DNA of 64,000 nucleotides from Microbacterium testaceum StLB037 (GTDB taxonomy: Bacteria > Actinomycetota > Actinomycetes > Actinomycetales > Microbacteriaceae), in the NCBI RefSeq assembly GCF_000202635.1, contig NC_015125.1, positions 2,108,001 through 2,172,000 on the forward strand, in the 5' to 3' direction. The translations under genes were made by a program, and so were the position numbers. The notes below the pieces were generated by a model. It had not been told where the DNA came from. It ran no database searches and saw only the letters and a program-made list of their open reading frames with translations. Below are positions 36,614 to 58,289 of the stretch, piece by piece; position 1 is the first letter of the stretch; the number at the start of each line of letters is the position of its first letter.

Positions 36614-36658
36614 CCGCAACCGCTGCGGGCGCTCGCGCGTAAGCGCTTCGCAGCGACC

Positions 36659-36713
36659 GAGTGTCCAAAACACCCGGAGCCGCGCGAAAAACCTCCGGGT
36701 GTTCTGGACACTC
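36659..36713. repeat. long inverted repeat inside the rhamnose operon
   Basis: Arms at 36659-36679 and 36693-36713 pair over 21 positions with one mismatch; the core is GTGTCCAAAACACCCGGAG on the left. The loop is 13 bases, CCGCGCGAAAAAC. It sits in the 205-bp gap between the isomerase and aldolase/dehydrogenase genes. It may be an attenuator, a processing site or a copy of a genomic repeat. Confidence 0.85.
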
Positions 36714-36818
36714 AGCGACAGAACCGACGCCGGGAGCGCGACGCGCACCGCGCGACCCGCGACGCAACGCACACGACACCACGCACGACACGACCCATCA
36801 CACGACGAGGGAAACGAC

Positions 36819-38855
36819 ATGACCACCTCCACCGCGCACGAGCTCGTCGAGCGCAGCAATCGCCTCGGCTCCGACCCCAAGGTCACCAACTACGCCGGCG
36901 GCAACACCTCCGCCAAGGGCACCGACATCGACCCCGTCACCGGCGAGCCGGTGGAGCTGTTGTGGGTCAAGGGCTCGGGCGGAGACCTGGGCACGCTCAC
37001 CGAGAAGGGGCTCGCCGTCCTGCGCCTCGACCGCATGCGCGCGCTCGTCGATGTGTACCCCGGGATCGAGCGCGAAGACGAGATGGTCGCCGCGTTCGAC
37101 TACTGCCTGCACGGCAAGGGCGGGGCGGCTCCCTCGATCGACACCGCGATGCACGGACTCGTGGATGCCGCGCACGTCGACCACCTGCACCCCGACGCGG
37201 GGATCGCGATCGCGACCGCCGCCGACGGCGAGGAGCTGACGCAGAAGATCTTCGGCGACAAGGTCGTGTGGGTGCCGTGGCGTCGTCCCGGCTTCCAGCT
37301 GGGGCTCGACATCGCCGCGATCAAGGAGGAGAACCCGCAGGCGATCGGCACGATCCTCGGTGGCCACGGCATCACCGCGTGGGGTGACACCTCCGAGGAG
37401 GCCGAGTGCAACAGCCTGTGGATCATCGACACCGCGCAGGCCTACATCGACGAGCACGGTGCGGCCGAGCCGTTCGGCGGGGTGCGCGCGGGCTTCGCCG
37501 CTCTGCCCGAGGCCGAGCGTCGCGCGAAGGCGGCGGCGCTGGCCCCGACGATCCGCGGGCTCGCCTCGACCGACAAGCCCATGGTCGGTCACTTCACCGA
37601 CGCCGACGTCGTGCTCGACTTCCTGGCATCCGAGAAGGCTCCCGCCCTGGCCGCGCTCGGCACGAGCTGCCCGGACCACTTCCTGCGCACCAAGGTGAAG
37701 CCGCTGATCCTCGACCTGCCCGCCGACGCGTCGGTGGAGGAGGCGATCGCGCGGCTGAAGGAGCTGCACGTCGCCTACCGCACGGACTACCAGGCGTACT
37801 ACGACGCGCATGCCACCGCCGACAGCCCGGCGATCCGCGGCGCCGACCCGCTCATCGTGCTCGTCCCGGGCGTCGGCATGTTCTCGTACGGCGCGAACAA
37901 GCAGACCGCGCGCGTGGCGGGCGAGTTCTACGTCAACGCCATCAACGTCATGCGCGGCGCCGAGGCCCTCTCGACCTACTCTCCGATCTCGGATGCCGAG
38001 AAGTTCCGCATCGAGTACTGGGCGCTCGAGGAGGCCAAGCTCCAGCGCATGCCGAAGCCCAAGACGCACCAGGGTCGGATCGCGTTCGTCACGGGTGCGG
38101 CATCCGGAATCGGCAAGGCCATCGCGACCCGCCTCGCCGCGGAGGGTGCGTGCGTCGTCGTCGCCGACCTCGACCTCGAGAAGGCGCGAGCGGTCGCCGC
38201 CGAGCTCGGCTCGACCGACGTCGCGATCGGGGTCGCGGCGAACGTGGCGGATGCCGAGGGCGTGCAGGCCGCGATCGACGCCACCGTGCTCGCGTTCGGG
38301 GGCATCGACCTCGTCGTGAACAACGCCGGTCTCTCGCTGTCGAAGCCGCTGCTCGAGACCACCGAGAAGGACTGGGACCTGCAGCACGACGTCATGGCCA
38401 AGGGCTCGTTCCTCGTGTCGAAGGCGGCGGCCAAGGCCCTCATCGCGCAGGGCATGGGGGGAGATGTCATCTACATCTCGTCGAAGAACTCCGTGTTCGC
38501 CGGTCCGAACAACATCGCCTACTCGGCGACCAAGGCCGACCAGGCGCACCAGGTGCGCCTGCTCGCGGTCGAGCTCGGCGAGTACGGGGTGCGCGTCAAC
38601 GGCATCAACCCCGACGGGGTCGTGCGTGGCTCGGGCATCTTCGCCGCCGGCTGGGGCGCGAACCGCGCCGCCACTTACGGCGTCGATGAGAAGGACCTCG
38701 GTCAGTTCTACGCCAACCGCACGATCCTCAAGCGCGAGGTCGTGCCCGAGAACGTCGCCGACGCGGTGTTCGTGCTGACCGGCCCCGAGCTCTCGCGCAC
38801 GACCGGCCTGCACGTGCCCGTCGACTCGGGCGTCGCGGCGGCGTTCCTGCGATGA
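36819..38855 (+). CDS. rhaEW: bifunctional rhamnulose-1-phosphate aldolase / L-lactaldehyde dehydrogenase
   Basis: Fusion of 678 residues. The N-terminal half (about 1-400) is a class II aldolase ([13 protein letters not shown]; zinc histidines in [12 protein letters not shown] and LGGHGITAW), cleaving rhamnulose 1-phosphate to dihydroxyacetone phosphate and L-lactaldehyde. The C-terminal half (from about 415) is an SDR with [16 protein letters not shown] and the active-site YSATK, oxidising lactaldehyde to L-lactate. This RhaEW layout replaces separate RhaD and AldA. The order also has the lactate dehydrogenase gene shortly downstream. The ATG is preceded by GAGGGAAACG, and the stop overlaps the kinase start (ATGA). 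Confidence 0.93.
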
Positions 38856-40375
38856 GCGGGACGTCGTCGGGCAGCGCCGCCGGAGAGGGCGGAGGCGTGG
38901 CGGCCGCGGCCTCGGGAGCTCCGGTACCCGCGGCCGGAGCCTCGGCCCCCGCGGCGGGTGCGCCCGCCGCCCAGGCGCCCGGCGCCGTCCGCGCCGTCGC
39001 CGCCGTCGATCTCGGGGCCACGAGCGGCCGCGTGATGATCGGGCGGGTCGGCGACGGGGTGCTCGAGCTCGAGCAGGTCGCGCGGTTCCCCAACGGCCCG
39101 GTCGAACGCGCCGACGGTTGGCACTGGGACATCGAGGCGCTGTGGGATCACGTGCGCGCAGGGCTCGTCGAGGCCCTCCGCCGCGAGCCCGGCATCGAGA
39201 GCGTCGGCATCGACTCGTGGGCCGTCGACTACGGCCTGCTCGGTGCGGACGGCCTGCTCGCCGAGCCGTTCCACTACCGCGACGAACGCACGGCGCGCGG
39301 GGTGGACGCGGTGCACGGCATCGTCCCGTTCGAGGAGCTGTACCGTCGCAACGGCCTGCAGTTCCTCCCGTTCAACACGCTGTACCAGTACGCCGCCGAC
39401 CCGCAGCTGGCCGCCGCCGAGACGAGCCTGCTCATCCCCGACCTCCTCGCCGAGCGGCTCACCGGCCGCCGGGTCGCCGAGCGCACGAACGCCTCGACCA
39501 CGGGGCTCGTCGACGTGCACACGGGGGAGTGGGACCTCGCTCTCGCCGAGGTGCTCGGCATCCCTTCGCTCGTCCTGCCGCCCCTGGTCGATCCCGGGGA
39601 GACGATCGGACGCGCGCGCGGGCTGGGCGATGTCCCGGTGGTCGCGGTCGGCTCGCACGACACCGCCTCGGCGATCGTCGCCGTCCCCCTGTCGTCGCCG
39701 AATGCCGCGTACATCTCCTGCGGGACCTGGGGGTTGGTCGGGCTCGAGCTCGATGCGCCGATCGTGACGGATGCCGCCCGCGCGGCGAACTTCACGAACG
39801 AGGGAGGCGTGGACGGGCGCGTGCGCTTCCTCCACAACGTCACGGGCCTGTGGCTGTTGAGCGAGACCGTGCGGGCGTGGGCGGAGCGCGACGGCGTCGC
39901 GGTCGACCTCCCCGCGCTCCTGGCGGCCGCCGCCGTCGAACCGGCGCCCGCGCGTCTCTTCGACGCCGACGACCCCTCGCTGTCGACGCCCGGAGACATG
40001 CCGGCGCGCATCGCGACCCTGCTCGGGATGCCGGAACCCGGCGTCGCGGAGCGCGCCGCCTTCGCGCGGGTCATCGTCGAGAGCATCGCGGACGCCTTCG
40101 CGCGAACGCTGCGGACGGCGGGGGAGCTCGCGGGGCGCGACATCGATGCCGTGCACCTCGTCGGCGGGGGAGCGCTCAACGCGCTGCTGTGCCAGGCGAC
40201 CGCGGACCGCAGCGGAGTACCCGTGCTCGCGGGTCCGGTCGAGGCCACCGCGCTCGGCAACGTCCTGGTCCAGGCGCGCGCCCTCGGCTGCTTCGGCGCC
40301 GACGCGTCGCTCGAAGAGCTGCGCGATCGCGTGGCATCCGCTTTCCCCGCGGTCAGATTCGATCCCCGCTCCTGA
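38852..40375 (+). CDS. rhaB: rhamnulokinase
   Basis: FGGY-family sugar kinase of 507 residues phosphorylating L-rhamnulose at O1. The phosphate-1 motif [10 protein letters not shown] starts at residue 53. [15 protein letters not shown], the adenosine-side [12 protein letters not shown] and [18 protein letters not shown] follow in family order. The first 45 or so residues are an Ala/Gly/Pro-rich extension absent from most RhaB proteins. Either it is real, or translation starts later than the ATG at 38852, which overlaps the preceding stop by four bases. Coupled translation favours the early start. Confidence 0.92.
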
Positions 40376-43383: not shown

Positions 43384-44510
43384 GCGCCCCGGTGGGAGTC
43401 GGCATCATCGGTGCCGGTGTCATCAGTGACACCTACCTGGAGAACCTCACGTCGTTCCCCGACGTGACGGTGCTCGCGGTCGGCGACATCGACATCGAAC
43501 GTGCCCGCGCCAAGGCGGAGAAGTACGGCGTCGCCGCGTGGGGCACCGCCGACGAGGTGCTCGGCAACCCCGACATCCAGGTCGTCGTCAACCTCACCAT
43601 TCCCGCCGTGCACGTCGAGGTCTCGTCCGCCGCGATCGCCGCGGGCAAGCACGTCTGGACCGAGAAGCCGCTCGGCCTCGACCGCGCCGGCACCGCGCAG
43701 CTTCTGCGCGACGCCGAGGCCGCGGGCCTGCGGATCGGCTCCGCCCCCGACACCGTGCTCGGACCCGGCTTCCAGTCCGCCAAGCGCGCGATCCTCGACG
43801 GCGTGATCGGTCAGCCCGTGTTCGCGCAGGCCTCGTTCCAGACGCAGGGGCCCGACCTCTGGCATCCGGGACCGCAGTTCCTCTTCGCGCGCGGGGCCGG
43901 CCCCCTGCTCGACATGGGTCCGTACTACCTGACGGCGCTCGTGAGCCTGCTCGGTCCGGTGGACCGGGTCGCGGCCCTCGGCGCGAAGCCGCAGGCGCAG
44001 CGCGAGATCCACGCCGGACCCGACGAGGGCACGTTCTTCGACGTCGAGGTGCCCACCACGGTGCAGCTTCTCGCGGCGTTCGAGAGCGGCCAGCAGGCGC
44101 AGGGGCAGTTCAGCTTCGACTCGGCGCTCGAGCGCCACGGTGTGCTCGAGATCCACGGCACCGAGGGCACGATCGTGCTTCCCGACCCCAACCGTTTCGA
44201 GGGGCCGACGCGGTACGTCAAGCCGCTCGGCGTGCTGCGCGACGGCGCCCGCTTCGACCAGCCGTGGATCGACGTCGAGCAGGAGGGCGTGGTCGTCGGC
44301 CGCGGTCTCGGCCTGCTCGACATGGTCCGCGCGATCGCGGAGGACCGCCCGCACGTCGCCACGGGTGAGCTCGGCTACCACGTGCTCGACATCATGCTGT
44401 CGGCCGAGGAGTCGATCGAGAACGCGGCCTTCACGACCGTCGAGAGCACGCTCGCGGCTCCCGTGCCGGTCGTGCCCCGCGACTTCGATCCCTTCGCGCG
44501 CACGATCTGA
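43380..44510 (+). CDS. Gfo/Idh/MocA family oxidoreductase
   Basis: NAD(P)-dependent sugar dehydrogenase of 376 residues. The Rossmann motif VGIIGAGVISDTYLENL is at 4-20. The family WTEKPLGLDRAG lies near residue 93, its Lys forming part of the active site. The second domain has the typical LLDMGPYYLTALVSLLGPV near residue 178 with a conserved Asp-x-Gly. GTG start overlapping the preceding stop. A terminator hairpin at 44519-44562 follows. It is likely to oxidise a sugar or cyclitol hydroxyl before or after the isomerase step. Confidence 0.87.
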   Translation: MSAPVGVGIIGAGVISDTYLENLTSFPDVTVLAVGDIDIERARAKAEKYGVAAWGTADEVLGNPDIQVVVNLTIPAVHVEVSSAAIAAGKHVWTEKPLGLDRAGTAQLLRDAEAAGLRIGSAPDTVLGPGFQSAKRAILDGVIGQPVFAQASFQTQGPDLWHPGPQFLFARGAGPLLDMGPYYLTALVSLLGPVDRVAALGAKPQAQREIHAGPDEGTFFDVEVPTTVQLLAAFESGQQAQGQFSFDSALERHGVLEIHGTEGTIVLPDPNRFEGPTRYVKPLGVLRDGARFDQPWIDVEQEGVVVGRGLGLLDMVRAIAEDRPHVATGELGYHVLDIMLSAEESIENAAFTTVESTLAAPVPVVPRDFDPFARTI

Positions 44511-47731: not shown

Positions 47732-49414
47732 TCACTCCGCCCGAAGCCACGCGCCGGCGGGGAGCCGCATCCGCCCCGCACCGACGCGGACGTCTCGAGC
47801 CCGCTCGTCGAGGTTGGCCGCGAGCGTCACCCGCCCCTCCGCTGTCGTCACCCGCATCACCCACACGCGGGAGTCGGCGCTGCACCCGACCTCGACCGAG
47901 CTCCCCGCGAGGCTCGCGAGGACGTCGAGCGCTTCCGCCACGGGGTACGGCTCGCCGGAGGAGGACCGGATGCCACGGGGCCCCCACTCCTCGAAGAACG
48001 CCACCGACGCGATCCCCGGTGTCGTCAGCGCGGCGAGGCTCGCCACCGTCCAGGCTGCGAGCTCCGGTGCGCTCTGGCGCGGATCCGCCGCGTCGAGGAG
48101 AGCGGGGCCGTACCCCGCGCGCAGATCGGGTTCGCTCGGAACCGGTTCCGCCGTCGTCGCGACCGCGTCGACGTGCGGGCGCAGGGTCACGGGCCCGACG
48201 TGCACGGGGGTGCCCCCGGAGAGCTTCACCGCCTGGCGGGCGATGAGGGGCAGGATGCCGAGGGATTCCACGAGCTGCGCCGTCGCCCGCGCGTGGAACA
48301 GCGGCGTGAGGGCGAAGCCGACGCCGTCGAGGTCGTCGGGGAGCAGGGAGTGTCCTCGGTTCAGTTCCGTGAAGTGCGTCCGGGCTCCACCGACGACGGG
48401 CAGGTCGAGCCCCTCCGCGTGGAGCGCCTCGCGCAGTCCGGCCACGGTCGTGGCATCCGATACGTGCTTCTCGGGCCCGTCGCCGGCGAAGGCGCCGACC
48501 GTGCGCACGTCGAGGCCGCGCAGGGGCGCCACGGCCGCGCGCAGATGGCGGGGAGAGGCGCGCACGAAACGCACGTCGAGCGGGAGTCCGGACGCGGTGG
48601 CCCGATCGAGTGCCGCGCGCCACGCGGGTGAGGCGAGGTCGAGCTCGACGCGGACGAACGAGCCGACCGGGGCAGGAGGGGGCGCCGGGTCCGGCGCGGT
48701 CGCGGCGCCGACGCCGAGCGCGGGGACGACGCCGGCCGGCCGCAGGACCACCTCGTCATCGGCGGTCGCGAGGGGCTCCGCCGCACCGGTGGCGCGGAGC
48801 GTCACCGCTTGCCGCACGCGACTCCCCGCGGCGAGCCGGTAGGGGAAGGGGAGCTCGAGCGGGCGGCTGTACGTCTTGAACGAGGCATCCGTCCAGTTGC
48901 GCTGGTCCTCCATCTCGAACACGTCGCCCTCGAGGGTCATCGACAGGGCGAGGCCGCGGTGCTCCCAGGCCAGTGCCGCGATGTCCAACGCCGGCTGGTG
49001 GGGGCTGATCGCGCGCGGGAAGCGAGTGGCCTCGACGGCTCCCTCCGTGTGAGTGACGGTGAGGTCCGCCCCCGCCACCGCGGGAGGGTGCAGGACCACC
49101 AGGCCGAGGCGATTGGTCTCGACCTCGCGCTCCGCGACCACGTCGGCGACGACCTCGAGGCGCGCCCCGTCCACGCGCACCCCGACCGTGCCGACGATCC
49201 CGCCGCCCCGGACGTGCAGGGTCACCGCGGCCGGGCCGCTCTCGCACCGTTCGACGTCGAAGTCGACGGTTCCCCAGTCGCGGTCGCGCAGCACGAGACG
49301 GACGCTGCGGAGCACGACGACCCCGTCGACCGCGAGGTCGGCGAGCTCATCGCCGCGGCGCTCGAGCGACCACCGCCCGTCCGTCCACGCCGCGCCCGGC
49401 TCCGCCCACGTCAT
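47732..49414 (-). CDS. apnL: probable D-apionate lactonase
   Basis: Protein of 560 residues matching what I know of D-apionate lactonase (ApnL), which opens D-apionolactone to D-apionate. The N-terminal beta-sandwich contains LRSVRLVLRDRDWGTV and the characteristic EDQRNWTDASFKTYSRPLE near residue 195. A TIM-barrel-like middle (GLDVRTVGAFAGDG; HFTELNRGHS) and a short C-terminal beta domain follow. There is no signal peptide. It is the last gene of the minus-strand operon that starts at 56185; only one base separates it from the SDR gene before it. Identification rests on motif memory and on neighbours that form the rest of an apionate route. Confidence 0.65.
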   Translation of the reverse strand: MTWAEPGAAWTDGRWSLERRGDELADLAVDGVVVLRSVRLVLRDRDWGTVDFDVERCESGPAAVTLHVRGGGIVGTVGVRVDGARLEVVADVVAEREVETNRLGLVVLHPPAVAGADLTVTHTEGAVEATRFPRAISPHQPALDIAALAWEHRGLALSMTLEGDVFEMEDQRNWTDASFKTYSRPLELPFPYRLAAGSRVRQAVTLRATGAAEPLATADDEVVLRPAGVVPALGVGAATAPDPAPPPAPVGSFVRVELDLASPAWRAALDRATASGLPLDVRFVRASPRHLRAAVAPLRGLDVRTVGAFAGDGPEKHVSDATTVAGLREALHAEGLDLPVVGGARTHFTELNRGHSLLPDDLDGVGFALTPLFHARATAQLVESLGILPLIARQAVKLSGGTPVHVGPVTLRPHVDAVATTAEPVPSEPDLRAGYGPALLDAADPRQSAPELAAWTVASLAALTTPGIASVAFFEEWGPRGIRSSSGEPYPVAEALDVLASLAGSSVEVGCSADSRVWVMRVTTAEGRVTLAANLDERARDVRVGAGRMRLPAGAWLRAE

Positions 49415-49415
49415 C

Positions 49416-50168
49416 TCAGAGCGTCGTCATGCCGCCGTCGACGGCGAAGAGGGCCCCGGTGGCGAACGCTCCGTCGTCGGACGCGAGGAAGACCATGATC
49501 CCCTCGACGTCCTCCGGGGCGCCCGCGCGACCGAGCGGGATGCGCCCGATGATCGCGGCTCGCGCCGCGGGGTCGTCGGTGATCGTGGTCACGAGCGAGG
49601 TCTCGGTGTACGCGGGGACGACGGTGTTCACGAGGATGCCGCGATCGGCATATGCCGCGGCGACGGTGCGCGTGAGCCCGTGGATGCCGGCCTTCGTGGC
49701 GCTGTAGGCGGTGAAGTCGCGCCCCTCGCCGTTCAGTCCGGTGGGGCTGCCCGTGACGATGATCGACCCGCCCGTGTCGCGCATCGCACGGACGGCGTGC
49801 TTGATGGTGAGGAAGGTCCCCGTGAGGTTCACGTCGACGGTGCGCTGCCAGACGGCGAGATCGAGGTCCGCGATGGGAGCGTCCTGGCCGAACAGCTGTA
49901 CGCCCGCGTTCGCGACGACGACGTCCGGCGTCCACCCCGCTTCTCCCGCGTCGGCGAAGGCGGCCGCGACGGACTCCTCGTCGGAGATGTCGAGGACGGC
50001 GGCCCGCGCGGCCCCGCCGATCCGCGCGACGGCCGCGGCCGTGGCATCCGCGTCCCGGTCGCCGATGAGCACGCGGGCGCCCTCGCGGGCGAAGCGCACG
50101 GCGACGGCGAAACCGATCCCGGTGGCCGCGCCCGTGACGAGCGCGGTCTTTCCCTGAAGTCTGGTCAT
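49416..50168 (-). CDS. SDR family oxidoreductase of the apionate operon
   Basis: Classical short-chain dehydrogenase of 250 residues. TGAATGIG cofactor motif at about 12-19, NAG motif (VVANAGVQLFG) near 88, catalytic Ser in IVTGSPTG and Tyr/Lys in YSATKAG near 155. The C-terminal GALFAVDGGMTTL is typical. It lies between the putative oxidoisomerase and lactonase genes. It could oxidise apiose or another branched sugar to the lactone, or reduce an intermediate; neither can be decided from sequence. Confidence 0.88.
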   Translation of the reverse strand: MTRLQGKTALVTGAATGIGFAVAVRFAREGARVLIGDRDADATAAAVARIGGAARAAVLDISDEESVAAAFADAGEAGWTPDVVVANAGVQLFGQDAPIADLDLAVWQRTVDVNLTGTFLTIKHAVRAMRDTGGSIIVTGSPTGLNGEGRDFTAYSATKAGIHGLTRTVAAAYADRGILVNTVVPAYTETSLVTTITDDPAARAAIIGRIPLGRAGAPEDVEGIMVFLASDDGAFATGALFAVDGGMTTL

Positions 50169-50178
50169 TGCGGTGTCC

Positions 50179-51045
50179 TCAGCGCGAGATCTGGTCGAGG
50201 TGCAGCATGCGCGCGAGGTTCTTGTCGAGCTCGTCGTCGCGGAAGATCTTCTTCCAGTCGTCCTTGATGATGCTCTCGCGACCGTAGTCCATCGCGATGA
50301 GGCACGCGTCGCTGAACGGGTTGTCGCCGCGGAGGCCGTTCGCGAGCGCCACCTGCGTGTGGCCGTACAGGATGCTGCGCGCCGCCGCCTCGGGCACGCC
50401 CATGGTGTGGATCGCCTCGTCGAGCGCTTCGTTGAGGAGCGCCCCGATCATGCACGCGACGGTCTCGACGAGGGTCGGCTCGAGCTGGGCGAGCTGCTTG
50501 ACCGTGACCCAGTGCACGTCGATCACCGGGGCGTAGATCGCGCGGACGGTGGCCTCGACGATCGCCTTCTTCTCGGGGTCGTCGGACTCGATCGCGGCGA
50601 TCGCGTCCTGCGCGGCGGCGATGCCGCCGAACGTGTCGGCCCACTCCTCCTTCGTCGTGCGCTCGAGGAACACCGAGGGGTGGCAGGGGTGCGCGACGGC
50701 CTGCACGACGTCGCCGCGGGTGGTCAGCAGTCCCGCGTAGGCCGCGGCCGGGTCGAGCGTCAGCACGATCGCGCCCGGCTTCAGCTGCGGCACGAGCTCG
50801 GCGGTGACGGGCCCGAGGGCGAGGTCGGGCACGGCGAGCACGACGATGTCGGCGTCCGACACGGCATCCGCCGCGTCGGTCAGCTCGCGGCCCGCGGCGA
50901 GGGTGCGCTCGCGCCCCGCCGGGGAGTTCTCGACGTACGCGACCGGGTGGGCGGTGCGCGCGAGGTTGTTCGACACGCGCATGCCCATCTTGCCGCCCGC
51001 GCCGATGACGGCGATCGAGTGGAGGTCGGTGGTGGTCTCGGTCAT
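50179..51045 (-). CDS. apnO: probable D-apionate oxidoisomerase
   Basis: NAD-binding protein of 288 residues of the 6-phosphogluconate-dehydrogenase-like superfamily. Rossmann motif IAVIGAGGKMGMRVSNNLA at 11-29; then VLAVPDLALG, the VAHPCHPSVF segment, and an all-helical C-terminal domain (NEALDEAIHTMGVPE). This matches the ApnO type, which converts D-apionate to 3-oxo-isoapionate by oxidation with carbon-skeleton rearrangement. Its start is overlapped by the stop of the TIM-barrel gene upstream (ATGA). A general hydroxyacid dehydrogenase is the alternative. Confidence 0.7.
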   Translation of the reverse strand: MTETTTDLHSIAVIGAGGKMGMRVSNNLARTAHPVAYVENSPAGRERTLAAGRELTDAADAVSDADIVVLAVPDLALGPVTAELVPQLKPGAIVLTLDPAAAYAGLLTTRGDVVQAVAHPCHPSVFLERTTKEEWADTFGGIAAAQDAIAAIESDDPEKKAIVEATVRAIYAPVIDVHWVTVKQLAQLEPTLVETVACMIGALLNEALDEAIHTMGVPEAAARSILYGHTQVALANGLRGDNPFSDACLIAMDYGRESIIKDDWKKIFRDDELDKNLARMLHLDQISR

Positions 51046-51836
51046 GGGGTGCTCCTCAGGTAGTCGATGGTGGTGCGGGTCCACTCCCGCTCCAGACGAA
51101 GGGTGGTTTCGGCGTCCCCCTGCCAGGGGAGCCAGTGCTCGACGATCTCGTCGATCCCGCGCTCGCGGGGTCGGACGGTGTCGAGCAGATGGGGGTAGTC
51201 GTGCAGTCCGGCGCCCATCGGTACGCCGGTGTACTCGAAGCCGACCCAGCCGTCACGGCGCTGGAAGGCGAAATCCTTGACGTGCACATTGGCGACGAGC
51301 TCTTCGCACACCTCGACGCACGCTGCGGGCTGCTCGAGCCGAGCCACCACGTTCGCGGGGTCGAGACAGATGCCCAGGCTCTCGCTCGACAACGACCACA
51401 CCAGTTCGACGAGATCGGCCGTGGCGACCTGTTCGTAGGTCTCGAGGGCCAGGGTCACCCCGGCCGCCTCGAAGGAGGGCAGGGTGTCGGCGAGCCAGCG
51501 CTCTGCGCGAGCGAGGGACGGCGTGCCCTCGGGGCCGATGAGCATCGAGCGGATCAGCCGTGCGTCGAAGACCTCGGCGAGGCCCAGGAAACGGTGGAGC
51601 CGTTCGGGCGTGAGGCCCTTGGTGCCGAGCTGCACGGTGATCCCGAGGTCGCGGGCGGCGGCCGAGGCCTCGGACAGCTCGCGATCGCCCATGTACTCGA
51701 GGGGGGCGAAGTCGCAGATCTGGAAGAGGTCGACGTCGAGCGCACGGGTCGCTTCGAACGCCCCGCGCAGCGTGAGGGGCTCGGGGGCGCGCGCCGAATG
51801 CTGCCAGAAGAACGCGTAGGTCCCGAGGCCGATCAT
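51042..51836 (-). CDS. TIM-barrel protein, candidate 3-oxo-isoapionate decarboxylase
   Basis: Xylose-isomerase-like TIM-barrel protein of 264 residues. Metal-ligand strands: LALETYEQVAT near residue 147, GICLDPANVV near 178, VANVHVKDFAF near 202, and a late Glu in the C-terminal part. Superficially a sugar phosphate isomerase/epimerase, but in D-apionate clusters I recall a protein of this kind (OiaC) that removes CO2 from 3-oxo-isoapionate to give L-erythrulose. Its neighbours here, a putative oxidoisomerase on one side and erythrulose-phosphate isomerases on the other, are exactly the enzymes before and after that step. It overlaps both neighbours by four bases. The family is solid; the decarboxylase role is inference. 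Confidence 0.7.
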   Translation of the reverse strand: MIGLGTYAFFWQHSARAPEPLTLRGAFEATRALDVDLFQICDFAPLEYMGDRELSEASAAARDLGITVQLGTKGLTPERLHRFLGLAEVFDARLIRSMLIGPEGTPSLARAERWLADTLPSFEAAGVTLALETYEQVATADLVELVWSLSSESLGICLDPANVVARLEQPAACVEVCEELVANVHVKDFAFQRRDGWVGFEYTGVPMGAGLHDYPHLLDTVRPRERGIDEIVEHWLPWQGDAETTLRLEREWTRTTIDYLRSTP

Positions 51837-52600
51837 GCGCTCACCGCCGCGCGAGCGGCGGCCTCGTCGATGACTCGTCGAAGCTGTGCGGGATCGTGGG
51901 CGAAGCGCCCCAGGAACAGGCCGTCGACCGCGCCGTCCAGGTCGGTGAGAAGGCCGGGCCCCGCCGAGCCGCCGTAGACCACCGCGCTGCCCGTGCGTTC
52001 GGGCAGCGCGTCGAGAGCCTCGCGGAGCGCCCGCGTGACGCGGACGATGTGCGGAATGGATGCCGGAGACTCCGCGCCGATCGCCCACACCGGCTCGTAG
52101 GCGACGGTGACCGCACCGGCGGGGGCGCCCTCGAGATCCGCGTGCAGCTGCGCCACGACGGTCGCGGCAGCGACGTCGGACGCGGTTCTCTCGGTCTCCC
52201 CCAGACACAGCAGAGGGGTGAGACCCGCCGCCAAGGCCGCCGTGGCTTTCGCCGCCGTGTCGGCATCGGTCTCGCCGAAGAGGCGTCGGCGCTCGGCATG
52301 GCCGATCTCCGCATAGGAGACGCCGATCTCCGCGAGCTCCGACGCCGCGATCTCACCGGTGAAGGCCCCGCCCGGGTGGGCCGAGACATCCTGTGCGCCG
52401 ATCAGCACGCCCGTCCCGGCGAAGGCCTCGAGTGCCGCGGGGATCTGCAGATAGGTGGGGACGACGACGAGCCGCACGGCGCCGGAGGCGACGGCCGGAG
52501 TGTCGCGGACGACCCCGGCGACCTCGCGCAGCCACGCGAGAGCGCGGGAGTGCCCGAAGTACGTCTTCAGGCTCACTCCCACCCATACCGGCGCGGTCAT
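51833..52600 (-). CDS. triose-phosphate-isomerase-like protein, probable L-erythrulose 1-phosphate isomerase
   Basis: TIM homologue of 255 residues with the full catalytic set: Lys12 (SLKTY), His101 (AEIGHAERR) and Glu169 (AYEPVWAIG), plus the phosphate loop (YGGSAGPG). It differs from housekeeping TpiA in the start (VGVSLKTYFGH instead of GNWKMN). This matches the EryH/LerI group that converts L-erythrulose 1-phosphate to D-erythrulose 4-phosphate. It sits next to an RpiB homologue and a dihydroxyacetone-kinase-like gene, the known partners in erythritol and threitol breakdown. The start overlaps the RpiB stop by one base. Confidence 0.8.
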   Translation of the reverse strand: MTAPVWVGVSLKTYFGHSRALAWLREVAGVVRDTPAVASGAVRLVVVPTYLQIPAALEAFAGTGVLIGAQDVSAHPGGAFTGEIAASELAEIGVSYAEIGHAERRRLFGETDADTAAKATAALAAGLTPLLCLGETERTASDVAAATVVAQLHADLEGAPAGAVTVAYEPVWAIGAESPASIPHIVRVTRALREALDALPERTGSAVVYGGSAGPGLLTDLDGAVDGLFLGRFAHDPAQLRRVIDEAAARAAVSA

Positions 52601-53070
52601 CAGCAGGATCCGGTGTTCTCGTACGCGGTGAGGACGGCGACCTTCTCGGCGCTCGCCGACGACTCATCGAAGCGATAGGTGAGCCACTCGCGCACGAGGC
52701 GTCGCGCGAGCTCGATCCCGACGACGCGCTGCCCCATCGTGAGCACCTGCGCGTTGTTGGACAGAACCCCGCGCTCGACCGAGAAGGAATCGTGCGCGGT
52801 GACGGCGCGGATACCGGGGACCTTATTGGCCGCGATCGCCACGCCCAGCCCCGTCCCGCAGATCAACAGGGCGCGGTCGGCCTCGCCGTTGGCGACGCGG
52901 GAGGCCGCTTCGATCGCGACCGTCGGGTAGGGCGTGTGGCCCTCGGCATCCACTCCCACGTCGGTGACCGACACGACGCCGCCGTTCGCCTCGAGGTCGC
53001 GTTTGAGGATCTCCTTGTAGTCGAATCCGGCGTCGTCGGAGCCGATCACGATGCGCAGGGGAGAGGTCAT
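52600..53070 (-). CDS. RpiB-family isomerase, probable D-erythrulose 4-phosphate isomerase
   Basis: Ribose/galactose isomerase RpiB/LacAB family protein of 156 residues. [10 protein letters not shown] at 11-20, catalytic Cys71 in the ICGTGLG loop, and [13 protein letters not shown] near residue 82. Paralogues of this type (EryI) convert D-erythrulose 4-phosphate to D-erythrose 4-phosphate, which enters the pentose phosphate pathway. Housekeeping ribose 5-phosphate isomerase is the alternative, but the position between the TIM-like and kinase genes favours the tetrose role. Its start overlaps the kinase stop (ATGA). Confidence 0.82.
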
Positions 53071-54818
53071 GAGGGGGTTCCCTTCTCGGAAGCGGTCGCC
53101 AGGACGTCGGCGACCGCGGCGGTGATGAGCGCGAGCGAGACGGCGCCCGGGTCGGGGGTGCCCACGGCGTGCTCGCCGTGGGTGCGGGCGCGGCCCTTGC
53201 GGGGCAGCAGATCCGCGGTCGCCGAAGCGGCGCGATCCGCCGAGACGGCGGCGGCAGCCCAGGCGGCCGAGAGCGAGGCGCCGCCGTCGACCCCGTGCGC
53301 GAGGGTCGTGGCGAAGGGCACGAGCGCGTCGACGAGGGTCTTGTCGCCCAGCTCGGCCTTGCCGTAGTCGGTGACGGCGCGGGAAGCGGCGGAGACGCCG
53401 GCCGCCACGTCGGCGGCGGTCGGGGTGCCGCTGTCGCCGAGCGCGCGGGCGATCGCCGCGAGGATCACTCCCCACAGGGCTCCCGAGGTGCCGCCCGCGC
53501 GATCGGCCCAGGCATCGGCGGCGCGTTGCATCGTCGTGGCGGCCCCGGCGCCCGCCTCGGCGGCGGCGTCCGCTGCCGCCCGCGCCGCGTGGGCCCCGCG
53601 CTGCATCCCGATGCCGTGATCGCCGTCGCCGGCCACGGCATCCAGTCGTCCCAGCTCATCCACGTGCGCATCGATCGTGTCGGCGATCGCCGCCACCGCG
53701 AGACGGACGGTCTGTGCCGCCGCTCGCGAGGAGTCGTCGGCATCCGGGATCTCGTCGGCGACCGTGACCGTCGCCGCCGGGGCGGCTACGCGATCGGTCG
53801 CGGTGACGGCCCCGCGGCGGTAGGCGGGGGTGTCGACAGGGTGCTCCCACAGTGTGGCGAGCTCGTCGTCGAGCCAGTAGAGGGTCAGCGACGTGCCGGC
53901 CATGTCGAACGAGGTGCAGTACTCGCCCACGTGCGGGTCGACGATCTCGATACCGGCCTCTTCGAGCAACTGGGCGACGCGCCGGTACACGACGAACATC
54001 TCCTCGTACTTGAGCGAGCCGAGCCCGTTCAGGATCGGCACCACACGAGCACCGGACACGGATGCCACCCCGTCGGGGAGTTCGGCCGGGTCGAGGAGGG
54101 CCGCGACGAGCATCTCGGCGAGCCCGTCCGCGGTCGGGACGTCGGTCTCGTCGATTCCCTGTTCTCCGTGGATGCCGAGCCCGACCGCCATGCGGCCCTC
54201 GGCGACGGTGAACAGCGGGTCCTCGGCGCCCGGCAGGGTGCAGCCCGTGAACGCGACGCCGAACGAGCGGGTGCGTTCGTTCGCGAGGGCGGCGACGCGA
54301 GTCACTCCCTCGAGGTCGTCGCCGCGTTCGGCGGCGGCCGCGGCAGCGCGGAAGACCGTGAGATCGCCCGCGATGCCCCTCCGGCGGAGGCGCTCCGCGG
54401 GAGGCGCGGAGGAGATGTCGTCGGTGACGGTGACGGTGCGCGCGTCGATGCCCTCGCGACGCAGGCGCTCCTGGGCCGCGTCGAAGTTGAGGACGTCGCC
54501 GGCATAGTTGCCGTACGTGAAGAACACGCCGCCGCCGTTGTCGGCTGCGCGCGCCGCGCCGTACACCTGCTGCGTCGAGGGCGAGGCGAAGAGGTTGCCC
54601 ATCGCCGCGGCGTGCGCCAGGCCCGGGCCGACCAGGCCGCCGAACGCCGGGTAGTGGCCGGAGCCGCCGCCCACCACGACCGCGACCTGGCCGCGCGGCG
54701 AGGTCGTCGCGCGGGCGACGCCTCCCGGGATGCGGCGGACGTAGCGGCCGTTGGCGGCCACGAAACCGTCGATCATCTCGTCGGCGAACGCCGCGGGCTC
54801 GTTCCAGAGTCGGGTCAT
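53067..54818 (-). CDS. dihydroxyacetone-kinase family protein, probable L-erythrulose kinase
   Basis: ATP-dependent ketose kinase of 583 residues with DhaK and DhaL domains joined. DhaK (1-335): GGGSGHYP at 50-57 and the His that binds the keto group covalently, His217, in GLGIHGEQG. DhaL (from about 385): the metal-binding [10 protein letters not shown] and [10 protein letters not shown]. This single-chain form resembles LerK, which phosphorylates L-erythrulose at O1, as well as ordinary dihydroxyacetone kinase; the two erythrulose-phosphate isomerase genes directly downstream favour L-erythrulose. The open frame runs further upstream through the transporter gene, but the real start is the ATG at 54818, overlapping the transporter stop. 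Confidence 0.85.
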
Positions 54819-56185
54819 CGGGCCGGCTCCTCGACCTCGGCCGGTTCGGGTGTCGCCGCGCGGGCGGATGTCGTCCGGCGGGCGAGGACGATCATGAGGA
54901 TCGCGGAGACCAGCATCACAGCGCCGACGATGAACATCGGAACCTCGTAGCCGCCCGTCCAATCGTGCACGGCGCCGGTGACGTACGGGGCGCTGAAGCC
55001 GGCGAGGTTGCCGATCGTGTTGATGAGGGCGACGCCCGCCGCCGCCGCAGCGCCCGTGAGGAACTTCGTGGGCAGCGTCCAGAAGTTCGGCAGCGCGGCG
55101 AAGATCGCCATCGCGGTCAGCGTGATCACAGCGATCGTCAGGGCGGGTGAGCCCGCGAACAGGGCCAGCGGGATGCTGACCGCGCCCACCAACGCGGGGA
55201 CCACGATGTGCCACGTGCGCAGGCCTCGACGCGAGGCGTCGCGCGACCAGAAGTACATCGCGATCGCCGCCGGGACGTAGGGGATCGCGGTGATGAGGCC
55301 CTTCTGGAACACGTCGAAGGTGGCTCCGGTCTGCTCCTGGAACCCGTTGATGATCGTGGGGAGGAAGAACGCGAGGGCGTAGAGACCGTAGATGAAGCCG
55401 AAGTAGATGAACGACAGCATCCAGACGCGTCCGCTGCGGAAGGCGAAGCGCGCGGAGACGTGCTTCTGGCTCGCTGCGGTCGCGGCCGACTCCTTCGCGA
55501 GGGCGGCGGTCAGCCACTCCTTCTCGTCGGCGGCGAGCCAGCCCGCGTCGGCGGGCTTGTCCTTCAGGTAGAACCACGCGATGACGCCGATGACGATCGC
55601 GGGGATCGCGACGCCGAAGAACATGAAGCGCCACCCCTCGAGGCCGAAGAACATTCCGTGCTGCTGGATGAGGGCGCCGGCGAGGGGTGCACCGATCACG
55701 GTCGTGAGCGGCTGGGCGAGGTAGAAGAGCATCAGGATGCGACCGCGGTGCGCCGCGGGGACCCAGAGGCTGAGGAAGAGGATCGCTCCGGGGAAGAACC
55801 CGGCCTCTGCGACACCCAGGAGGAAGCGCAGGACCACCAGCTGCTCGAAGTTCTGCACCCAGGTGAACAGCAGGGCGACGATGCCCCAGGTCACCATGAT
55901 CCTGGCGAGCCAGCGGCGGGCGCCGAAGCGGTGCAGGGCGAGGTTGGAGGGCACCTCGAGCAGGATGTAGCCGACGAAGAAGACGCCGGAGGCGAAGCCG
56001 AACTGCGCGGCGCTCAGGGCGAGATCGTCGTTCATCCCGTTCGGGGCGGCGAAGCCGATCGCGGTGCGGTCGAGGTAGTTGATGAAGAACATCAGGGCGA
56101 CGAAGGGGACCAGCCGCCACGCCACCTTGCGAATGGCGCGGCGCGCGACGTCGGGTTCCGCCGCACGAGGGTGAGAGGTGTCCAC
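54815..56185 (-). CDS. MFS transporter, ACS (organic acid) family
   Basis: Membrane importer of 456 residues with 12 helices. The helix 1 motif FFINYLDRTAIGFAAPNGMNDD is the signature of the anion:cation symporter family, which takes up sugar acids and other organic anions. That suits D-apionate, which is an acid. It is the first gene of the minus-strand operon. I choose the GTG at 56185, which has GGAG seven bases upstream; an in-frame ATG at 56227 abuts the operator and has no ribosome site. The last bases overlap the kinase gene start. Confidence 0.87.
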   Translation of the reverse strand: MDTSHPRAAEPDVARRAIRKVAWRLVPFVALMFFINYLDRTAIGFAAPNGMNDDLALSAAQFGFASGVFFVGYILLEVPSNLALHRFGARRWLARIMVTWGIVALLFTWVQNFEQLVVLRFLLGVAEAGFFPGAILFLSLWVPAAHRGRILMLFYLAQPLTTVIGAPLAGALIQQHGMFFGLEGWRFMFFGVAIPAIVIGVIAWFYLKDKPADAGWLAADEKEWLTAALAKESAATAASQKHVSARFAFRSGRVWMLSFIYFGFIYGLYALAFFLPTIINGFQEQTGATFDVFQKGLITAIPYVPAAIAMYFWSRDASRRGLRTWHIVVPALVGAVSIPLALFAGSPALTIAVITLTAMAIFAALPNFWTLPTKFLTGAAAAAGVALINTIGNLAGFSAPYVTGAVHDWTGGYEVPMFIVGAVMLVSAILMIVLARRTTSARAATPEPAEVEEPAR

Positions 56186-56227
56186 GATGACTCCGTTCGA
56201 TGAGGGCGCTTCGGCGCGCACGTCCAT

Positions 56228-56249
56228 ATTGGCCAACCGGTTGACCAAT
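56228..56249. promoter_or_regulatory. GntR operator of the apionate operon
   Basis: 22-bp near-perfect palindrome centred on CCGG (left half ATTGGCCAACC, right half GGTTGACCAAT; one mismatch). It lies in the 101-bp gap between the divergent ACS transporter and GntR genes. It contains TTGGCCAA and TTGACCAA-type half sites as expected for FadR-type GntR proteins. Confidence 0.75.
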
Positions 56250-56286
56250 TGCAAGCGCGACGACGGCGCCACGCTAGGTTGAGGGG

Positions 56287-57015
56287 GTGCCCGCCTATCC
56301 CGCCGACCGCAGCCACGAGATCGCGGCCGCGCTCGAGGCCCTCCCCGCGGGCTCTCCGGTCAGCGAGGTCGCACGGCGACTGCTCGACCTCTTCACCACC
56401 GGCTCGATCGCGCCCGGAACACGTCTGCCCGCCGAACGCGCGCTCTCCACGACGCTCGGCGTCGGCCGCTCGGCCGTCCGCGAGGCGCTCGCCGCCCTCG
56501 AGATCCTCGGGATCGTCGACGTCCGCCCCGGGTCGGGCACGTACCTGCGCGGCACCGCGAGCTCCCTGCTCCCGCAGACGCTGCGCTGGGGACTGCTCCT
56601 CGGCGACACCGACACCGCCGAGCTCCTCGACCTTCGCGCGGGGCTCGAGATCTACGTCGCCCGCCTGGCCGCCGAGCGCGCGGACGCCGTCGCGAACGAA
56701 CGCCTCGCGGCCACGCTCGCCGACATGACGCGGTCGCAGGGCGACCTTCGCGCGTTCGCCCGCGCCGACCTCGCCTTCCACGACGCCCTCGGCCACGCCG
56801 CCGGCAACACCCTGCTCGTCGATCAGCTCAACGTCGTCCGCTCGCTCCTGCAGGTCTACGCCGACCGCGCGGTCCAGAGCGCCGACGACGCGACCCGGGC
56901 CATCGCCGAGCACGACGCCGTGCACCGGGCGATCCAGGCACGCGACGCCGACGCCGCGGCATCCGCGATGGCCGTCCACATGGCGACGGCGTCGGCTCGT
57001 CTCGTCGGGGAGTGA
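56287..57015 (+). CDS. GntR family regulator, FadR/FCD type
   Basis: Regulator of 242 residues. The winged helix-turn-helix (LFTTGSIAPGTRLPAERALST, then VGRSAVREALAALEILGIVDV, about 30-85) is followed by an FCD effector domain. Visible metal/ligand residues are DLRAGLEIYVARLAAERA, FARADLAFHDALGHAAGN and EHDAVHRAIQARD. FCD regulators sense organic acids, often sugar acids, fitting a D-apionate inducer. It starts with GTG at 56287, divergent from the operon it probably represses through the palindrome at 56228-56249. Confidence 0.9.
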   Translation: MPAYPADRSHEIAAALEALPAGSPVSEVARRLLDLFTTGSIAPGTRLPAERALSTTLGVGRSAVREALAALEILGIVDVRPGSGTYLRGTASSLLPQTLRWGLLLGDTDTAELLDLRAGLEIYVARLAAERADAVANERLAATLADMTRSQGDLRAFARADLAFHDALGHAAGNTLLVDQLNVVRSLLQVYADRAVQSADDATRAIAEHDAVHRAIQARDADAAASAMAVHMATASARLVGE

Positions 57016-57098: not shown

Positions 57099-58289
57099 AT
57101 GAGTTATGGCGAACGGCCGCTCCCCGGCCCCTCCTGGCCGGCGGTGGACGCCGAGACGCGGATCGGGATTCGGGCTGCCCGCGCGGGTCACGCGAGGGTC
57201 GCGTACGACGCATCCGTGCCGCCGATGATCGCCTCACGGCACCCCGTCCTGCTCCCCGAGGTCGCGGCTGACGCGGACGAGGCAGCTGCGGAACTCGCAC
57301 GATTCGATGCGGAGCTCGGCGGCAGGGTCGCCGGCTTCGCCCCTGTTCTCCTTCGCTCGGAAGCCGCGTCCTCCTCGCAGATCGAGAACCTCACAGCCTC
57401 AGCGCGCGCGATCTTCTCCGCCGAACTCGGAGCGAAGGGATCCCGGAACGCCGAGCTGATCGCCGCGAACACGCGCTCCCTGCAGGCGGCTCTCGGGCTC
57501 GCGGAGCAGATCACGCCCGCCACCATCGCGGCGATGCACCGGGTTCTGATGGAATCGCAGCCGCGACACACCCCCGGCGAGTACCGAGGCGAGCAGGTCT
57601 GGATCGGGACGCGAGGCGACTCGCCCGTCGGTGCCGAGTTCGTCCCACCCCATCACGAACGCGTCGCGCCCCTCATCGACGACCTCGCGGAGTTCGCGGT
57701 GCGCTGGGACGTGCCGTCGCTCACCTCTGTCGCGATCGCTCACGCGCAGTTCGAGACCATCCACCCCTATACCGATGGCAACGGTCGAACGGGGCGAGCC
57801 CTCGCGCAGTCGATGCTCCGCTACCGCGGCGTCACAAGGAACGTCGCCGTCCCTGTGTCGGCGGGCCTCCTCGCGGATGTCGACGGCTATCACGCCGCGC
57901 TGACCGCGTACCGCGCGGGAGACCCCAACCCCATCGTCCGCGCCTTCGCTGCCGCGGCTTTCCGCGCGGTGTCCAACAGTCGAGAGCTCGTCTCCGACAT
58001 CGACGCGATACGCGCGTCGTGGAACAGTCGGCTGACCGTCCGCCGTGACTCGAGCGCCTGGAGACTCCTCGACATCTTCTTGTCCCGACCCGTTCTCGAC
58101 TCGGCGACCGCCGCCCGGGAGCTCGGGGTCGCTCAACCCAACGTGTATCCGCCCTTGAAGGCCCTCGTCGACGCCGGGATCGTCCGCTCGAAAGCCGAGC
58201 ACAAGCTGGGCCCCTTCTGGCGAAGCGAGGAGATTCTGGACGCTGTCGACGCGTTCGCCGCGAGGGCGGGGCGTCGCCAGCGGGGGTGA
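57099..58289 (+). CDS. Fic family protein, autoinhibited type
   Basis: Fic-domain protein of 396 residues that would transfer AMP (or another NMP) to a target protein. The catalytic loop HPYTDGNGRTGR starts at His222. An N-terminal inhibitory motif of the [S/T]xxxE[G/N] class is present as SSQIEN at 92-97, so the enzyme carries its own brake (class II). The C-terminal 90 residues form a winged-helix domain (SATAARELGVAQPNVYPPLKAL), which may bind DNA and autoregulate through the repeats in the promoter. Single gene with an AT-rich leader, suggesting a recent arrival. A toxin-like, stress or self-regulating role is possible. Confidence 0.9.
   Translation: MSYGERPLPGPSWPAVDAETRIGIRAARAGHARVAYDASVPPMIASRHPVLLPEVAADADEAAAELARFDAELGGRVAGFAPVLLRSEAASSSQIENLTASARAIFSAELGAKGSRNAELIAANTRSLQAALGLAEQITPATIAAMHRVLMESQPRHTPGEYRGEQVWIGTRGDSPVGAEFVPPHHERVAPLIDDLAEFAVRWDVPSLTSVAIAHAQFETIHPYTDGNGRTGRALAQSMLRYRGVTRNVAVPVSAGLLADVDGYHAALTAYRAGDPNPIVRAFAAAAFRAVSNSRELVSDIDAIRASWNSRLTVRRDSSAWRLLDIFLSRPVLDSATAARELGVAQPNVYPPLKALVDAGIVRSKAEHKLGPFWRSEEILDAVDAFAARAGRRQRG

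Follow-up and report, generated by a model that had tools for sequence, protein, structure and literature searches.

The window analysed here is a stretch of 64,000 nucleotides from Microbacterium testaceum StLB037 (contig NC_015125.1, positions 2,108,001 to 2,172,000), part of a 3.98-Mb single-contig genome. It contains a candidate operon for the use of D-apiose and D-apionate: eight co-directional minus-strand genes, spanning positions 56227 to 47732, are separated by overlaps or gaps of 10 bases or less (-4, -4, -1, -4, -4, +10 and +1 bases at the successive junctions from the importer to ApnL). A GntR/FCD regulator gene is transcribed divergently, and a palindrome lies in between. All these elements had been described in an earlier, sequence-only reading, and all were found as described. 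They are listed in Table 1. Two starts are possible for the importer gene: an ATG at 56227, which abuts the palindrome, and a GTG at 56185. A consensus scan revealed neither a sigma-70-like promoter nor an intrinsic terminator, a result of little weight in a high-GC actinobacterium, and tRNA and Rfam scans gave no match. In higher plants, D-apiose is a component of rhamnogalacturonan II in the cell wall and of many glycosides.

Table 1. Genes and operator of the candidate operon, in coordinates of the window.
Feature	Position	Strand	Family or match
MFS importer, anion:cation symporter type, candidate D-apionate importer	54815..56227	-	PF07690
DhaK-DhaL fusion kinase, candidate L-erythrulose kinase LerK	53067..54818	-	PF02733+PF02734
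RpiB-type isomerase (LacAB_rpiB), candidate DerI	52600..53070	-	PF02502
TIM-type isomerase, candidate LerI	51833..52600	-	PF00121
Xylose-isomerase-like TIM barrel (AP_endonuc_2), candidate 3-oxo-isoapionate decarboxylase OiaC	51042..51836	-	PF01261
PGDH_C dehydrogenase, candidate D-apionate oxidoisomerase ApnO	50179..51045	-	PF16896
Classical SDR, candidate NAD-dependent D-apiose 1-dehydrogenase	49416..50168	-	SDR family match
ApnL-type D-apionolactonase (predicted), divergent subfamily, 560 residues	47732..49414	-	NF049900, 220 bits
Divergent GntR/FCD regulator	56287..57015	+	PF00392+PF07729
Operator palindrome ATTGGCCAACCGGTTGACCAAT, 22 bases	56228..56249	.	one mismatched pair

Core enzymes and their distribution

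The candidate ApnO is a PGDH_C protein homologous both to the solved structure 5t57 (E 7e-61), which we take to be the ApnO of Cupriavidus, and to a protein of the Rhizobium etli apiose locus (41% identity); its identity to the Erwinia and Pantoea proteins is 58-59%. The candidate OiaC belongs to PF01261, presumably the family of 3-oxo-isoapionate decarboxylase. It is a xylose-isomerase-like barrel encoded next to ApnO, in a cluster without OiaK or a RuBisCO-like protein (RLP), and is 50-51% identical to the Erwinia/Pantoea protein which also adjoins ApnO. Three of its 120 best relatives listed bear the JGI name 3-oxoisoapionate decarboxylase; a PDB search with this protein gave no match.

The candidate LerK is 59-61% identical to the Erwinia/Pantoea kinase, and matches DhaK and DhaL of R. 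etli at 43% and 34%, respectively; the kinase and both isomerases, taken together, match the R. etli DhaK, DhaL, TIM and RpiB at 34-43%. Since the genome holds a further RpiB (32%), a further TIM (37%) and a split DhaK/DhaL pair (39-40%) elsewhere, the operon copies are extra ones. The DerI profile assigns 149 bits to the operon RpiB and 73 to the other RpiB of the genome, and the R. etli RpiB, 42% identical to that of the operon, itself passes this profile. The operon TIM and the importer are 48-49% and 66-68% identical to those of Erwinia/Pantoea; the best NCBIfam profile of the importer is a D-galactonate transporter (2A0114, 270 of 395 bits).

Two sets of loci (numbered L) were compared: 40 stretches around relatives of ApnL, from 37 genomes, of which 36 belong to the genus of the window and one to a different family, and 80 named actinobacterial loci around ApnO, five genomes being common to both. 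Genes within the loci were called by our own codon-usage caller. Relatives of ApnO and OiaC were found together in 31 of the 40 stretches and in 77 of the 80 loci, and the complete set of LerK, RpiB, TIM, OiaC, ApnO and GntR in 25 and 57, respectively. The clustering of these genes is beyond chance. LerK was found in 63 of the named loci, some of the contigs being short; the same core is present in Streptomyces, Arthrobacter, Agreia, Curtobacterium, Actinoplanes and others. One RLP match (L077, 49%) and no OiaK match were obtained in OiaC-bearing loci, and an RLP-like piece was recognised by eye at the edge of L065. Within the genus, the cluster enzymes with the highest conservation are ApnO (77-95%) and RpiB (79-97%). 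Only 15 of 396 genomes drawn over the phylum gave an OiaC match, and only 4 of them, M. testaceum included, one of at least 48% identity over the whole length; the core is therefore uncommon across the phylum.

On plasmids of Erwinia sp. E602 and Pantoea sp. At-9b, the MFS, kinase, TIM, OiaC and ApnO genes follow the order of the window, preceded by a divergent RpiB gene and followed by the gene of a sugar-binding regulator; the proteins are 48-68% identical to those of the window. No SDR or ApnL match was found by tblastn at 1e-5 in the 16,783-base Erwinia/Pantoea stretches. The core (importer, LerK, RpiB/DerI, TIM/LerI, OiaC and ApnO, as assigned by homology) is of a known kind and not particular to actinobacteria. 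Being known from Erwinia and Pantoea and from other actinobacteria, the complete apionate route in one cluster is therefore not itself new. The sequence-only reading had seen here a full apionate pathway: homology, gene order and co-occurrence agree with this, with the correction that the cluster consists of a core and an SDR-ApnL add-on, and that its starting substrate is probably D-apiose.

The SDR gene and its linkage to ApnL

The 560-residue protein matches a single NCBIfam model, that of D-apionate lactonase (NF049900, E 4.7e-65), to which the rhizobial ApnL proteins of R. etli and Roseibium score 1064 and 921 bits. A profile comparison by hhalign with rhizobial ApnL gave a full-length alignment (E 3e-60, 530 columns, 28% identity), and the motif FE.EDQRNW.DAS.KTY.RPL.LP.P is common to both, being kept in 10 of 10 and in 2 of 2 aligned sequences. 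The fear that this large protein might fall outside the ApnL family is thus removed at the level of homology: it belongs to a divergent subfamily of ApnL homologues and has a predicted lactonase activity. No match was obtained in the PDB, nor in a Pfam library which did not include PF25837; the protein database assigns PF25838 and PF25837 to this protein. In one genome (G342, locus L045) the window-type ApnL was found only as fragments, in pieces 72-86% identical, with neither ApnO nor SDR at the cut-offs used; this is perhaps a decayed remnant.

The SDR has the features of a classical member of its family, the Asn-Ser-Tyr-Lys tetrad (N114, S141, Y155, K159) and the glycine-rich motif TGAxxGIG being kept, together with D37, in five of five aligned sequences. 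An aspartate at the latter position favours NAD+ in SDRs. No SDR match was found at 1e-50 in 72,556 plasmid records, nor at 1e-5 in the R. etli and Roseibium apiose stretches.

The co-occurrence of SDR and ApnL was evaluated in the 66 of the 80 named loci with full context, taken to mean 5.5 kb or more ahead of ApnO and 2.5 kb or more behind it, by using presence thresholds (e.g. 55% identity for SDR and 28% for ApnL) set after the locus listing had been seen. Both genes were found in 29 loci, ApnL only in 5, SDR only in none, and neither in 32. A set of 366 genomes (numbered G), taken as Microbacterium on the basis of five stretches recurring in named Microbacterium loci, gave a similar picture: of 98 ApnO-bearing genomes, 88 have both genes, 3 ApnL only, none SDR only, and 7 neither. 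Five genomes with weak or fragmentary ApnL (G058, G163, G170, G046 and G342) were excluded, none of them being listed as bearing SDR or ApnO. In the ApnO tree, eight supported independent pairs differ in ApnL, and the SDR differs in the same way in seven of them (5 to 8 over 200 pairings) and in the opposite way in none (median p 0.016).

Gene order varies by genus, and the two genes stay in one locus, mostly adjacent. The order ApnO-SDR-ApnL is found in most Microbacterium, in Quadrisphaera and in Kineococcus, and ApnO-ApnL-SDR in Nakamurella and a Nocardioidaceae metagenome-assembled genome (MAG); SDR and ApnL lie beyond the regulator in Naasia, Planctomonas and Arthrobacter, and are divergent in Curtobacterium. 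When the window is compared with L051 and L053 in 150-base steps, DNA identity falls from 83-96% to about 61-81% at the border between ApnO and SDR; by gene, it is 85-93% from GntR to ApnO, 76-77% for SDR and 67% for ApnL. In L044 the upstream core is distant (73-80%) and ApnO (91%), SDR (92%) and ApnL (85%) are close, so that ApnO goes there with the SDR-ApnL pair. The SDR was also considered as a part of the core, and this was rejected, none of the 32 full-context ApnL-less loci having it. SDR and ApnL are an add-on module to a known core, and the operon therefore probably starts from D-apiose.

Three genomes with a window-type operon hold a second locus of different make-up (L046-L048), with an ABC importer, an OiaK-like protein, ApnO, ApnL and an OiaX-like RuBisCO-like protein, and with a GntR gene nearby. 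No window-type LerK or OiaC was found there at the cut-offs used; in L046 the OiaK-like kinase scores 393 of 700 bits and the OiaX-like protein 456 of 700. An SDR 65-67% identical to that of the window lies near this second locus. A fourth such locus (L049) is ended by the contig end, and the SDR of its genome (67%) is on another contig. The binding protein of the L046-L048 type matches 4ry0, 5ibq and 5hsg, presumably D-apiose-binding proteins, as second, third and fifth of 61 structures, the top one being 7e7m, named D-ribose binding protein. Because the SDR is tied to ApnL in two pathways which diverge after 3-oxo-isoapionate, its step should lie before that point. A conserved extended SDR of 321-328 residues also adjoins the second apiose-type locus in all four cases (L046, L047, L048 and L049).

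In R. etli and Roseibium the place directly before ApnL, taken by the SDR in Microbacterium, is occupied by a Gfo/Idh/MocA oxidoreductase gene, which we take to be ApsD. No such protein adjoins ApnL in the window, where the SDR is found instead, and the 120 loci L042-L161 gave only three matches to the rhizobial protein at 1e-10, 25-28% identical. Most likely, the SDR is a D-apiose 1-dehydrogenase, which would make the lactone that ApnL opens. The sequence-only reading had left it without an assigned step, as a possible new activity; linkage to ApnL makes a likely step assignable, and what would be new there is the type of enzyme. This SDR family appears not to have been tied before to the oxidation of D-apiose: a literature search, with most subscription journals outside its scope, found no paper joining apiose with Microbacterium, nor apiose with Actinobacteria and short-chain dehydrogenase. 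In two MAG loci (L152, from Acidimicrobiaceae, and L149, from another actinomycete), ApnL occurs without SDR and is adjoined by a 337-residue protein, with an aldo-keto-reductase-like frame, by eye, in L152; this would fit a need for a dehydrogenase next to ApnL.

The operator and its occurrence

Homology and context support the acid-type importer and the local GntR regulator that had been proposed within the cluster. The GntR/FCD gene adjoins the core in most full-context loci, and the palindrome in the divergent promoter region is conserved: its exact core ACCGGTTGACC occurs in 74 of 95 regions upstream of GntR, compared with 61 of 19,000 length-matched windows drawn at random from the same loci. 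In the listed loci the distance from this core to the importer match downstream is about 30 to 200 nt. The pattern AACCGGTTGACCAA is present in 96 of the 98 ApnO-bearing genomes of the genus and in 4 of the other 268, whereas a reversed control pattern was found once in 366 genomes. Of the four exceptions, G052 has a lone ApnL behind the site, core genes adjoin it in G104 and G170, and that of G246 falls inside a predicted gene. The M. testaceum genome contains one exact site, between GntR and the importer; a further site has 3 mismatches, the level of the control pattern.

An extra copy of the operator precedes ApnL or SDR genes detached from the core in nine loci (L062, L064, L065, L068, L107, L127, L129, L145 and L161), and these genes therefore probably belong to the same regulon. 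A gene similar to FAD-linked sugar-lactone or alditol oxidases (L055:17586-18830 and similar ones) recurs by GntR or ApnL in several Microbacterium loci, and in L062 it is separated from ApnL by the operator. In a locus without the MFS importer, a GntP-family permease gene (L067:1043-2464) has the operator 61 nt in front.

The surroundings of chosen operator sites were inspected in 20 stretches outside the M. testaceum genome, extra sites in G145, G150, G154, G169, G273 and G399 being left out. Fifteen of the chosen sites lie away from the core. Nine of these lead a single gene or a short run of genes with an IUNH- or Sde182-type nucleoside-hydrolase-like protein (L212, L213, L218, L219, L220, L221, L224, L225 and L226), as called by Pfam for six proteins in six stretches, and by similarity or by eye for the rest. 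Since L218 and L220, as well as L219, L221 and L224, look orthologous, the nine represent fewer independent cases. Two sites lead a CUT2 ABC set with DUF2291 (L215 and L223), one an oligopeptide-type ABC set adjoining, by eye, a GH3-like gene (L214), and one lies between a Gfo/Idh/MocA-like gene, 25-27% identical to rhizobial ApsD, and a CUT1-like ABC set (L217); the last two fall inside predicted genes (L222 and L229). M. testaceum has two IUNH genes in all.

Similar folds of the IUNH/Sde182 type occur behind or beside the operator in L059, L070, L084, L101 and L228, and relatives lie close to the SDR in Planctomonas (L125) and to the core in Quadrisphaera (L109). The operator is close to CUT2 ABC sets with DUF2291 in L062, L106, L215, L223 and L231, and an importer type with DUF2291 is also annotated in the Roseibium apiose locus (L179). 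By analogy, the operator-linked CUT2 sets are candidate apiose importers. The ring form in which apiose is found, the furanoside, is also that attacked by nucleoside hydrolases; cleavage of apiosides by the IUNH-/Sde182-type proteins is a guess. The joint proposal, that the SDR founds a family of D-apiose 1-dehydrogenases unrelated to ApsD, that the operator marks an actinobacterial apiose regulon and that the IUNH/Sde182 proteins are new apiosidases, is tentative and, taken as a whole, rather doubtful.

Within the window, a Fic-domain protein gene (57225-58289) directly follows the GntR gene. A GH78 alpha-L-rhamnosidase gene and a GH3 gene adjoin each other at 18498-23236, about 24 kb from the operon, and are followed by genes resembling those for L-rhamnose use (34950-40375).

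Proposed pathway and comparison with known systems

Taken together, it is probable that the eight genes form a GntR-controlled operon which takes D-apiose and D-apionate to D-erythrose 4-phosphate, the catalytic steps, the importer substrate and the regulator ligand being predicted from sequence and context. The SDR would oxidise D-apiose at C1 to D-apionolactone, and ApnL would open the latter to D-apionate, which the MFS protein may also import. ApnO would isomerise and oxidise D-apionate to 3-oxo-isoapionate, to be decarboxylated by OiaC to L-erythrulose. This would be phosphorylated by LerK to L-erythrulose 1-phosphate, and converted by LerI and DerI, through D-erythrulose 4-phosphate, to D-erythrose 4-phosphate. 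The new part would be the SDR step, which would replace the unrelated Gfo/Idh/MocA-type ApsD of rhizobia.

Several observations weigh against this interpretation, and some of them concern the linkage of the two add-on genes. Seven of the 80 named loci hold ApnL with no SDR close by, five of these being full-context loci, and 6 of the 94 genomes with a strong ApnL match in the 366-genome set have no SDR; SDR without ApnL occurs in 4 of the 366, which lack ApnO as well. A LacI-type gene separates the two in the Microbacterium loci L062, L064 and L065, and three genomes (G005, G110 and G197) carry them far from each other or on separate contigs. The operator core is nowhere in 17 of the 95 GntR-bearing loci, which include those of Streptomyces, Kitasatospora, Nakamurella and Planctomonas and the MAG loci L149 and L152, and is therefore not common to all. 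The importer was found in 31 of the 32 ApnL-less and in 14 of the 34 ApnL-bearing full-context loci, as would be expected if it imports D-apionate and becomes dispensable once apionate is made inside; when phylogeny is allowed for, about 3.5 pairs to 0 remain (median p 0.125, not significant), and the contrast is therefore suggestive only. No candidate importer for the sugar apiose was identified in the genome of the window.

Other points concern single proteins. The ApnL candidate fails the equivalog cut-off of NF049900 (220 of 750 bits), and is therefore placed in a divergent subfamily; the OiaC candidate has no NCBIfam match. The 25 of 228 SDR profiles listed by the NCBIfam search are all below cut-off and name other activities, and the best PDB match of the SDR, 4ni5, names none. 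The operon RpiB fails the DerI model NF051858 (149 of 240 bits), whose name points to rhizobia, and passes the NCBI ribose-5-phosphate isomerase model RPI_actino (206 of 168 bits). The operon TIM is not the nearer of the two to the TIM of the R. etli apiose locus, which is closer to the other TIM of the genome (38%, 8e-42) than to it (36%, 2e-27). Finally, a Gfo/Idh/MocA-family gene lies in the window at 43392-44510, with orthologues in L042, L043, L045 and L082; it was rejected as ApsD, being 21% identical to the rhizobial proteins. The use of NCBIfam cut-offs as arbiters of family was likewise rejected, the OiaK-like protein of the R. etli locus, where ApnL does pass its model, itself scoring only 467 of 700 bits.

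Three other explanations were considered. The operon may serve D-apionate only, with the SDR acting elsewhere (e.g. in an overflow reaction that reduces L-erythrulose or 3-oxo-isoapionate) and ApnL on imported apionolactone. The organic-anion type of the importer would suit this, as would the core without SDR and ApnL, which covers the whole apionate route in Streptomyces, some Arthrobacter, Erwinia and others; it is nonetheless unlikely, because the full-context ApnL-less loci lack the SDR despite their ApnO core, and because the SDR stands beside ApnL in the RLP-type loci L046-L048, in which neither LerK nor OiaC of the window type was found at the cut-offs used. Slightly less probable again is the same chemistry on another branched aldonate or lactone, the divergent ApnL-SDR pair having a different sugar specificity. 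ApnL is far below its equivalog cut-off and more divergent than the core (44-82%, compared with 77-95% for ApnO, in 31 core-bearing stretches), whereas ApnO and the later steps point by homology to the apionate skeleton, and the sister loci in the same genomes combine the SDR with proteins like OiaK and OiaX and with an ABC importer whose binding protein matches 4ry0, 5ibq and 5hsg. An operon for L-erythrulose or for tetritols (erythritol, threitol), in which the SDR would be a tetritol dehydrogenase, would agree with LerK, LerI and DerI being tetritol enzymes elsewhere, as stated in PMC10733421. It was rejected as highly improbable: a tetritol route has no need of ApnO, OiaC or ApnL, whereas ApnO and RpiB are the best-conserved enzymes of the cluster in the genus, and the SDR tracks ApnL instead of the LerK-bearing core.

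If the reading of the cluster as a D-apiose and D-apionate operon is true, actinobacteria would have a first-step enzyme which the annotation models tried do not name, the two add-on genes would be a marker splitting apionate-only from apiose-using strains, and the operator would find further pathway genes (importers, candidate apiosidases) elsewhere in Microbacterium genomes.

Among known systems, the degradation of D-apionate by a decarboxylase of the xylose isomerase family, the OiaC route, is said to have been reported by Carter et al. 2018 and to be also in MetaCyc. Its ApnO, OiaC, DhaKL kinase, TIM and RpiB steps are common with the cluster of the window, which adds SDR and ApnL, and which has a GntR/FCD regulator with its own operator, whereas a sugar-binding regulator stands by ApnO on the Erwinia and Pantoea plasmids. 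The rhizobial D-apiose locus of the RLP route (R. etli CIAT 652 pC and a Roseibium plasmid) has ApnL and ApnO homologues in common with the window and, like it, an oxidoreductase gene directly beside ApnL; it has a Gfo/Idh/MocA protein, ABC import, and a kinase with a RuBisCO-like protein where the window has SDR, MFS and OiaC. ApsD, of the Gfo/Idh/MocA family, is presumably the D-apiose dehydrogenase EC 1.1.1.420. The EC number is that cited in PMC11747546. ApsD and the SDR of the window share the proposed reaction and the place by ApnL, and belong to unrelated protein families; ApsD-type proteins of rhizobia match no operon protein, and in the window only the gene at 43392-44510, at 21%.

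LerK, LerI and DerI are described as tetritol enzymes of other bacteria in PMC10733421. This module has its three steps in common with the last ones proposed here and starts from tetritols, whereas the substrate in the window would come from 3-oxo-isoapionate through OiaC. For the apiose cluster of Escherichia coli ST131, the authors of PMC13001218 propose that two putative oxidoreductases replace the first enzyme, apsI. That cluster follows an isomerase-type route, as in Pectobacterium carotovorum.

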